Origin: Methylocystis heyeri
Lineage (GTDB): Bacteria > Pseudomonadota > Alphaproteobacteria > Rhizobiales > Beijerinckiaceae
Reading direction: 5' to 3'
Length of the DNA: 64,000 nt
Assembly: GCF_004802635.2 (NCBI RefSeq)
Contig: NZ_CP046052.1
Coordinates: 496,001-560,000 of the forward strand
Made by a program: the position numbers and the translations under genes
The notes under the pieces: model-generated
What the model was told of the DNA's origin: nothing
The model's input: only the letters and a program-made list of their open reading frames with translations
Databases searched by the model: none
In this document: piece by piece, positions 3,384 to 6,131 of the stretch
How positions within the stretch are numbered: the stretch's first letter is position 1
Layout: the number at the start of each line of letters is the position of its first letter

Positions 3384-3590
3384 TTATTGTGACAGTTTGG
3401 CGGGGTAACCCGCGTCGGTGATGATCTGCGCCAGCGCCTCGGGGTCCTTGGGAGCGGGCGAAACCTCGACTTTTCCGGTGGCGAGATCCACTTTCACCTC
3501 GGCGCCCGGCTGCGCCGCCTGCACCGCCTTGGTGACGTGCTTCACGCAATTGCCGCAGCTCATCTCCTTCACGTCGAAGGTCGCGCTCAT
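3384..3590 (-). CDS. Nested in-frame CopZ-like copper chaperone (possible separate product)
   Basis: This is the 68-residue 3' end of the copA frame, listed separately because it looks independently translatable. It starts at ATG 3590-3588 ([15 protein letters not shown]) and carries one heavy-metal-associated fold with a CxxC site, exactly the size of a soluble CopZ chaperone that hands Cu+ to CopA. The beginning MSAT also repeats the beginning of CopA itself (MSATED). Separate production is inferred from the strong internal Shine-Dalgarno. If it is not used, the domain is simply a C-terminal metal-binding domain of CopA. Confidence 0.45.
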
Positions 3591-6131
3591 TTGATTCTCC
3601 TCTTCTTTCTTTGGTTCGGGCGATTCGATTCGCGAAATATGGGTGAGGTCCGGGCCGACATGGGGCGGCTGGAAACGGCGCAGGCGCAGCGCATTGCTGA
3701 TGACGAAGACGCTGGAGAGAGCCATCGCTCCCGCGCCCAGCATCGGCGACAGCAGCGTTCCGTTCACCGGATAGAGCGCTCCCGCCGCGACGGGTATCAG
3801 AATCACATTATAGGCGAAGGCCCAGAACAGGTTTTGCGCGATATTGCGCATCGTGGCCCGGGAGATCGCCAGGGCGGCGGGAACCTTTGCGAGATCCCCG
3901 GACATCAGCACGACGTCCGCGGCCTCGATCGCGACATCCGCGCCGGCGCCGATCGCTATGCCCGCGTCGGCCGCCGCAAGCGCGGGCGCGTCGTTCACGC
4001 CGTCGCCGACGAAGGCGATTTTTTTATCCTGGCGCAGTCTTTTCAGGGATTCCACCTTGCCGTCGGGCAGGACGCCGGCGATCACCCGGTCGATCCCGAC
4101 CCGGGCGGCGATGGCTTGCGCGGGCTTTTCCGCGTCGCCGGTGATCATCGCCGAAGCGACGCCCATGTCGTGGAGGGCCGCGATCGCGTCGGCGCTGGTG
4201 GGTTTGACCGCGTCCGCCACGCAAAGCAGGGCTGCCACCGCGCCGTCGACCGCGGCGTAGAGTGGAGTCTTGCCTTCCGCCGACAGGCGGGACGCCTCGG
4301 CCGCGAAAATTCCGGCGTCGAAGCGGAGCGAATCCATGTAGCGCGCGGCGCCGACGGCGATCTTCTTCTTGCCGACGACGCCGGAGACGCCCATGCCCGG
4401 GACCGAGACGAATTTGGAGCAGGGCGAGACCGCGAGCCCCTGGGCTTTGGCCGCTTCCACCAGGGCGCGGGCGAGGGGATGTTCGGAAAGCGCCTCGACG
4501 CTGGCGACGAGCGCGAGAACCTTGTCCTTCTTAGCCTTGGGAGCGGTCACGAAATCGGTCAGCTGCGGCTTGCCGAGGGTCACGGTGCCGGTCTTGTCGA
4601 AGGCGATCAGCGCAACGTCGCGGAGCGTCTGTAAAGCCTCGCCCTTGCGGAACAGAACGCCCAGCTCTGCGGCGCGGCCCGTGCCGGTCATGATGGCGGC
4701 CGGGGTGGCGAGGCCCATCGCGCAGGGGCAGGCGATGATGAGCACACTCACCGCGTTGACCAGGGCGTAGCTCAGCCTGGGCTCGGGGCCGATCAGCATC
4801 CATATGGCGAAGGTCGCCGCCGCTATGGCGAGGACGACCGGCACGAAGACGCCCGTGACCTTATCCGCGAGAGCCTGGATGGGCAGCTTTGCGCCCTGGG
4901 CCTGCTCCACCATGCGGATGACGCCGGCGAGGAATGTGTCCGCGCCGACCCTGGTTGCGCGAAAGGCGAAGGCGCCGGTGGTGTTGACCGTGGCGCCGGT
5001 GACCGTCGCGCCCTGCCTTTTGGCGACGGGCGCGGGTTCGCCCGTCATCATCGATTCGTCGACATGGGACTCGCCGCTCACGACCACGCCGTCGGTCGGG
5101 ATTCTCTCCCCGGGCCGCACCAGAACGATGTCGCCGACGCGGACGTCCTCGGTGGCGATGTCCAGCGGCTGTCCGTCGCGCTCCACATGGGCGATGCGCG
5201 GCTGCAGCCGGGCCAGCGCCCGAATCGCGTCCGAAGTGCGGCCTTTGGCGCGAGCTTCCAGAAACCGCCCGAAGAGGATCAGCGTGACGATGACGCAGGC
5301 GGATTCATAATAGACATTGGCGGCGCCGGCCGGCAGCAGCGAGGGCCAGAAAGTGGCGACGACCGAATAGAGATAGGCTGCGCCCGTGCCGGTCGCGACG
5401 AGGCTGTTCATATCCGGCGTTCCCCGCAGCAGGGCGGGCAAGCCCCTGGCGTAGAACGGCCTGCCGGGGCCGGCCAGGATCAGAGTCGTGAGGACGAAGG
5501 AAACATAAAGCGCCGTCATGTGGCCGATATTGGCGGCGATCCATTCATGCGCGCCGGGTATGACATGCGCGCCCATCTCCAGGGCGAAAACAGGGGTCGT
5601 CAGAACGGCGGCGGCGAGAAGCCGTCGCGACAGGGCGCGGCTTTCCTCTTCCTTGGCGTCGCCCTGGGGGGCGGCCTTCTCCGGGATCGGCTCATAGCCG
5701 GCCTCGGATATGGCGCGGCTCAGCTTTTCGATCAGTCCAGGGCCCTTGAGCGCACGCACCGTCGCCCGCTCGGTCGCGAGATTGACGTTCGCCTCGATGA
5801 CGCCCGGCGTAGCGCGCAGCGCCTTCTCTACATGGGAGACGCATGAGGCGCAGGTCATGCCGCCCACGCCGATCTCGATCGTTTCGATTACGGGCTCATA
5901 GCCCGCTTCGGCGACGGCTTGCGCGATGCCGGCGGCTTTGGTTCCCGGCCTGAGCGCGACCTCGACGCGTTCGGTCGCCAGATTCACGCTGGCGCCCGTC
6001 ACGCCTTCGGTGTTCTTCAGGGCTTTTTCCACATGGGCCACGCATGAGGCGCAGGTCATCCCGCGCACTTCAAACCCTAGCCTGTCGGCGGGCGCGGACT
6101 GCGTAGCGGCGGCGTCTTCTGTGGCGGACAT
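3384..6131 (-). CDS. copA: Cu(+)-translocating P1B-type ATPase with C-terminal CopZ-like domain
   Basis: A 915-residue ATPase. Two heavy-metal-associated domains sit at the N-terminus, each with GMTCASC (residues 24-30 and 91-97). Then come the membrane segments, the actuator loop ([10 protein letters not shown]), the metal-binding CPC helix ([11 protein letters not shown]), the phosphorylation site DKTGTVT, the P1B hallmark EHPLARAL and the hinge [10 protein letters not shown]. It exports Cu+ (or Ag+) from the cytosol. The unusual part is the C-terminus. After the last membrane helix and a charged linker, residues 848-915 make a complete third HMA domain (EMSCGNC) of free-CopZ size, starting with its own Met and preceded by a strong ribosome binding site. 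Most CopA proteins end soon after the last helix. Confidence 0.95.
3588..3604 (-). promoter_or_regulatory. Internal ribosome binding site inside copA
   Basis: On the minus strand AAGAGGAGA (3604-3596) lies 5 nt before ATG (3590-3588). It matches the anti-Shine-Dalgarno very well and sits at good spacing, although the upstream copA frame runs through it without a stop. It encodes the Lys/Glu-rich linker (KKEEEN) between the ATPase and the CopZ-like domain, so the purine run may be partly a by-product of that linker. Confidence 0.5.

Follow-up and report, generated by a model that had tools for sequence, protein, structure and literature searches.

Probable internal translation start for a CopZ-like chaperone nested in the 3' end of the copper-pump gene copA of Methylocystis heyeri and of other lineages with fused genes

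In the window analysed here, a 64,000-nucleotide stretch of Methylocystis heyeri (contig NZ_CP046052.1, positions 496,001 to 560,000), the minus strand carries copA (3384..6131), an open reading frame without a stop that encodes a copper-type P1B ATPase of 915 aa with three PF00403 stretches. The protein scores 580.9 bits against TIGR01511 (cut-off 397), which places it in the copper P-type ATPase subfamily, and 717.5 against the narrower CopA equivalog NF007952, under the cut-off of 1316 of that model. Two HMA domains are N-terminal (domain 1 at 5895..6074, PF00403 53.1 bits; domain 2 at 5691..5867, 57.6 bits; both on the minus strand) and the third is C-terminal (46.9 bits against a cut-off of 24.8; window 3405-3581, G000:C1:499405-499581). 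A linker of 30 codons (3591..3680, minus strand), hypervariable among relatives, leads from the last pump helix to a nested frame of 68 aa plus stop (3384..3590, stop 3386..3384, minus strand) that holds this third domain. With 68 residues and MSCGNC (3546..3563, minus strand, from the ORF translation) as its MxCxxC motif and predicted Cu(I)-binding site, the nested domain is of the CopZ type. Both Cys of the motif are invariant among 18 aligned relatives, and CopZ of Bacillus subtilis, Atx1 proteins and further chaperones are among the relatives of solved structure. The 68 residues score below the cut-offs of all curated CopZ models (the best, NF047957, gives 45.2 bits against 85), and for this reason we call the domain CopZ-like. 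A scan of the minus strand from 3300 to 6700 for one promoter type found no promoter-like site, and nothing in it points to a transcript of its own for the nested frame. A tRNA-Leu (GAG) gene (3223-3307, minus strand) lies a short way downstream of copA.

The nested frame opens with an ATG (3588..3590, minus strand) behind the internal Shine-Dalgarno (SD) sequence AAGAGGAGA (3596..3604, minus strand), with a gap of 6 nt between GGAG and ATG. A preliminary description had seen in the last 68 codons of copA a Met-started HMA domain behind an SD, and the PF00403 match, AAGAGGAGA and the 6-nt spacing bear this out. The computed anti-SD duplex at ATG 3590 (-9.1 kcal/mol) is matched by none of the 27 other ATG, GTG or TTG codons that lie in frame within the 430 codons ahead of the linker. 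The 60 nt round this ATG fold at -5.6 kcal/mol, and none of 74 other windows of copA is as open. The site has what characterises an in-frame internal start, namely a start codon and an SD at proper spacing that are conserved and lie in unstructured RNA. We consider it very probable, on the sequence evidence, that copA is one gene from which two proteins arise by internal initiation. Translation from the normal copA start would give a pump to which one more HMA domain is tethered at the C-terminus; on the same mRNA, ribosomes would also load at the in-frame SD close to the 3' end and start at ATG 3590, releasing a free CopZ-type chaperone of 68 residues that could deliver Cu(I) to the pump or elsewhere. 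The earlier suggestion that internal initiation at the 3' end yields both a fused domain and a free chaperone is thus supported by the conserved start and SD, by the low RNA structure, and by an HMA search of the window genome (E <= 1e-3) that found no other free CopZ, its other matches being a 564-aa frame (L001) and a second P-type ATPase (L005). Initiation at ATG 3590 and the output of two proteins are inferred from these data, and so is anything said on how much of each protein is made and which task each takes on.

The C-terminal domain was matched (E <= 1e-5) in 35 of 39 Methylocystis genomes, fused to the pump in 30 and split off into a short frame of its own in five (G001, G023, G034, G036 and G037), with no match in the other four. 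One fused genome carries two copies, and all 31 fused loci of the genus were read. Every one of them has the ATG at the same place and a GGAG, with AAGGAGG or one-base-weaker forms in 29, while the linker ranges from 25 to 55 residues. Four linkers (L013, L015, L016 and L019) appear to contain an inserted repeat (REERSDEATQ... SARNDE), with frame, internal SD and ATG intact.

Fused genes are also found in other lineages. A sample of 199 genomes of the family gave 33 matches at E <= 1e-14, spread over three of 41 genera. All nine matching Methylosinus genomes are fused, a group that includes Rhodoblastus acidophilus has six fused and five split genes, and a third Alphaproteobacterial genus, from another family of the same order, is fused in three of the five genomes searched. 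In a Massilia-like genus, to which Massilia sp. CFBP 13721 belongs (its L122 linker equals that of L172), 56 of 59 genomes have a full-length match without a stop, and 31 of these loci were read. One of the Massilia-like loci, L180 (G1315), has the fused 3' end and internal start intact with a frame of only 236 aa upstream; its pump part looks interrupted or misassembled. Searches with the HMA domain alone, at the level of order and class, returned mostly short free frames. A helix-linker-HMA profile gave a full-length, stop-free match in at least five of 397 genomes of the order (G000, G011, G249, G320 and G346) and at least three of 397 of the phylum (G000, G011 and G1154), counts that are lower bounds because the profile was built from fused loci. 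A search of 4363 plasmid records had 15 among the matches listed. One of these, H3 of Methylobacterium nodulans, where a single annotated gene underlies the match, was rejected as a fused case, since by its annotation the ATPase gene ends within the match and is followed by a transposase.

Altogether 80 fused loci were read: 31 from Methylocystis, nine from Methylosinus, six from the Rhodoblastus group, three from the third genus and 31 from the Massilia-like genus. Left out of this number are L122, L148 (the L008 gene), L202-L204 (equal to L135-L137), and L055-L073, L079 and L095, which are repeats of counted genes or served only as HMA-domain controls. A start codon (ATG in 78, GTG in two) with GGAG or GAGG at start-site distance is present in all 80. 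Elsewhere in frame, within the pump parts, the same holds for 116 of 1988 start codons, or for 10 of 703 if ATGs alone are counted. In 77 of 79 fused loci the SD and the start are 6 to 9 nt apart. By duplex energy, in 51 loci (L122 included), 23 of 1421 other in-frame starts and three of 611 ATGs match the internal start of the gene in which they lie; in the Massilia-like set the numbers are 38 of 1118 starts and eight of 304 ATGs. In the alignment of Methylocystis and Methylosinus (39 distinct rows), the information content is 1.50 bits in columns -13 to -7 versus 0.48 in the linker at -60 to -25, with G, G and A at -10 to -8 invariant. HMA domain 2 served as an internal control: a site of -6 kcal/mol or better stands ahead of it in one of 24 genes, compared with 27 of 27 for the C-terminal domain. 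Ahead of HMA domain 1 a strong SD is found in 15 of 27 genes; we take it to be that of the start of copA itself, and for this reason the domain was not used as a control. The weak end of the range includes two Methylosinus sites at -6.0 kcal/mol, one of them that of Methylosinus trichosporium OB3b, and in one Methylosinus gene (L044) the start is less open, with four of 74 windows of the gene as open. In two fused copA genes of the Rhodoblastus group (L140 and L141) GTG replaces ATG behind the same GGAG, and L141 has an additional ATG two codons before its GTG.

A rival reading takes the site for a relic: a stop would have been lost between neighbouring copA and copZ genes and the old copZ site would not have decayed, with only the fused protein being made or mattering. 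Both the codons of the linker and the history of the gene bear on this. Counts of codons, openness and spacing refer to 79 fused rows (without L122 and L155). In the Massilia-like rows a glycine codon GGA stands at -12 in 30 of 30, whereas GGA makes up 29 of the 1234 codons for glycine in the pump part, and in the Rhodoblastus group GGA is used at the motif in six of six, versus 27 of 270. The observed mean SD strength was reached in none of 300 synonymous recodings of the Massilia-like, Rhodoblastus and Methylocystis sets; the result was null for Methylosinus (187 of 300) and for the third genus (53 of 300), and these draws, being made on related rows, are not independent tests. Codon-level selection is thus plain in the Massilia-like and Rhodoblastus groups, which speaks against a relic. 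In its favour, the SD strength of Methylocystis taken row by row is no better than that of synonymous recodings (median p 0.52); the recoding result for Methylocystis is significant only for the group as a whole, and the case for the genus of the window therefore does not rest on codon choice. As to the RNA, in each of the five groups 50-nt windows are least folded where the internal start lies, for Methylocystis -3.9 kcal/mol versus -10.5 to -20.1 elsewhere in the profile. Openness beyond what the residues require is individually significant in 27 of 30 Massilia-like, six of six Rhodoblastus and 12 of 31 Methylocystis rows, and in only three of nine Methylosinus rows and none of the three of the third genus.

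For the history, a tree was built from the pump part only (430 columns) and rooted on the Rhodoblastus group. The comparison of close relatives that the preliminary description had called for did reveal genes with a stop between the ATPase and CopZ parts, and of the five genes that are split in Methylocystis four fall within a fused clade (support 98/95 and 100/99); the fifth, L154, sits on a long branch and its placement is unsure. The simplest reading would be a fusion before Methylocystis and Methylosinus diverged, followed later by fission, and since the start has been kept the nested copZ could revert to two genes. In the Rhodoblastus group it is the fused genes that nest among split ones, and on this tree we read their fusion as a separate event. 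The position of the third genus is unsure, so that its fusion may or may not be separate. Four state changes are needed on the tree, of which the starred branches force three, and five on a wider quick tree. In one split relative, L151 (G216), copA and copZ overlap in different frames and the copZ SD lies inside the end of copA; such an overlap is a possible intermediate between the split and the fused state.

The split neighbours in relatives, overlapping pair included, are a likely ancestor of the fused gene and as such fit a relic. However, the fusion is common to Methylocystis and Methylosinus, and split Methylocystis genes inside a fused clade make a fresh relic unlikely. When the window is compared with a Methylosinus, 20 of 50 four-fold sites have changed in the neighbouring pump part, and the linker has been scrambled while SD and ATG stay; that the site is merely left over is unlikely too, given the age of the fusion and the extent to which its linker has been scrambled. 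On balance we regard a relic as improbable, and internal initiation remains the preferred reading.

Less probable still is that the purine-rich stretch is conserved because it makes ribosomes pause or gives the linker its charge, and not as part of a start. KEE-like residues do recur in Methylocystis and Methylosinus linkers. However, the SD is written by varied residues and in varied codon phases, as AAG-GAG-GA in KEE, as GGA-G in DGD, VGE, KGE, QGA and TGE, and also in EEE, so that different groups encode the same GGAG by different residues. Start codon and spacing are kept along with it, and the two genes that have exchanged ATG for GTG argue in the same direction, as a pause site needs no start codon. 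A free chaperone might instead be cut from the fused protein, the long, variable, Pro/Ala-rich linker being conceivably sensitive to proteases; yet the linker has no conserved residue pattern besides the codons that write the SD, and cleavage would account for neither the start codon nor the openness of the RNA, making this a far-fetched explanation. Finally, the case that a sequencing error has merged two ordinary genes, for which the preliminary description had left room and to which the two-gene relatives might point, can practically be dismissed, because read-through is seen in 30 of 35 matching genomes of the genus, nine of nine matching Methylosinus and 56 of 59 Massilia-like genomes.

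Internal initiation would leave both forms of the chaperone available. No linker has a stop in frame 0, compared with 10 and 25 of 31 Methylocystis linkers with a stop in the other two frames; the contrast is small in the Massilia-like linkers (four and six of 30). The stop-free frame 0 hints that the tethered form may be wanted too. Taking the evidence together, we think it likely that a copZ nested at the 3' end of copA represents a recurrent and selected design, with at least three separate origins (Methylocystis/Methylosinus, the Rhodoblastus group and the Massilia-like genus, perhaps also the third Alphaproteobacterial genus), which can revert to two genes, provides tethered and free chaperone from one mRNA, and is hidden in the copA of "CopZ-lacking" genomes such as that of OB3b.

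Methylosinus trichosporium OB3b is a model for copper-dependent methane oxidation. According to excerpts of PMC5171941, it has CopA and CueR homologues and lacks CopZ, and its safe cytosolic handling of copper is "currently unknown"; excerpts of a survey of 53 Rhizobiales genomes report CopZ homologues in 26 (PMC5552934). One of the Methylosinus genomes read here, G163, is most likely OB3b, as a 1116-base stretch of the OB3b plasmid pOB3b1 is found in it at 100% identity and identical coordinates. Its copA (L043) is fused and has an ATG behind GAAGAGGAAG. The SD is matched in strength by one of 29 other start codons, and none of 74 other windows of the gene is as open as the start. The N-terminal peptide of the nested OB3b frame would be TTTFEVQEMSCGK (with or without Met). 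A chaperone of this kind inside copA would close the CopZ gap of OB3b. Copper chaperones appear absent from many genomes, and a nested one would escape annotation that reports one frame per locus.

Several known systems resemble this arrangement in part. As described in excerpts of PMC7558416 and PMC5009743, E. coli copA also yields a small HMA chaperone, CopA(Z), by a -1 programmed frameshift, so that there, as presumably in the window, one copper-pump gene provides, in addition, an HMA chaperone of about 70 residues. By the same excerpts, E. coli CopA(Z) is the 5' (N-terminal) HMA domain and arises by frameshift and early termination, whereas in Methylocystis the 3' HMA domain has a start site of its own; with the candidate chaperone at the 3' end of copA and in frame 0, the window gene is not an E. 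coli-type frameshift case. In-frame internal starts that give shorter proteoforms are listed for mrcB, clpB, infB, arcB and others in excerpts of PMC11005335, and these share with copA, as read here, a second start within the frame that produces an N-terminally shortened protein. Compared with the cases in those excerpts, the predicted copA product differs in being a complete small chaperone and in having a start that recurs in separate fusions. Separate copA-copZ operons, as in excerpts of PMC7558416 and in our split relatives, encode the same two adjacent proteins, copZ with its own SD; unlike them, the window gene has no stop between the parts and also encodes a tethered copy. Archaeoglobus fulgidus CopA, going by a title cited in PMC8475189, is likewise a copper pump that carries a metal-binding domain C-terminally. 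Searches of the open-licence PMC literature (listings and some excerpts) yielded no description of CopZ made by internal initiation, from an internal start codon, by alternative translation or as a CopA fusion. What is already known is one gene for pump and chaperone (in E. coli) and internal in-frame starts; what is new is their combination. If true, the internal 3' start would be a second solution to what E. coli does by a 5' frameshift, which suggests that coupling of chaperone output to the pump itself is selected.

Other HMA proteins of these genomes are of several kinds. In the window genome, L001 (1441-3135, C1) by eye reads as an HMA domain, then a TauE/SafE-like membrane part and then a further C-terminal region. 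Further HMA frames are present in other Methylocystis genomes, eight of which were opened. L167, L168 and L171 look like exported MerP-type proteins, L169 is a two-HMA frame, and L164, L165 and L170 (G007, G011 and G001) by eye have an HMA domain with an MHCxGC-like motif N-terminal to a methyltransferase-like protein. In the fused genome G003, L166 encodes a divergent HMA of about 68 residues on its own, and a free HMA protein is therefore not always missing from fused genomes. Some genomes of the Massilia-like genus likewise have other short HMA frames. At L160 (G825), a gene for a MerR/CueR-like regulator directly follows copA and has an AGGAGA site of its own.
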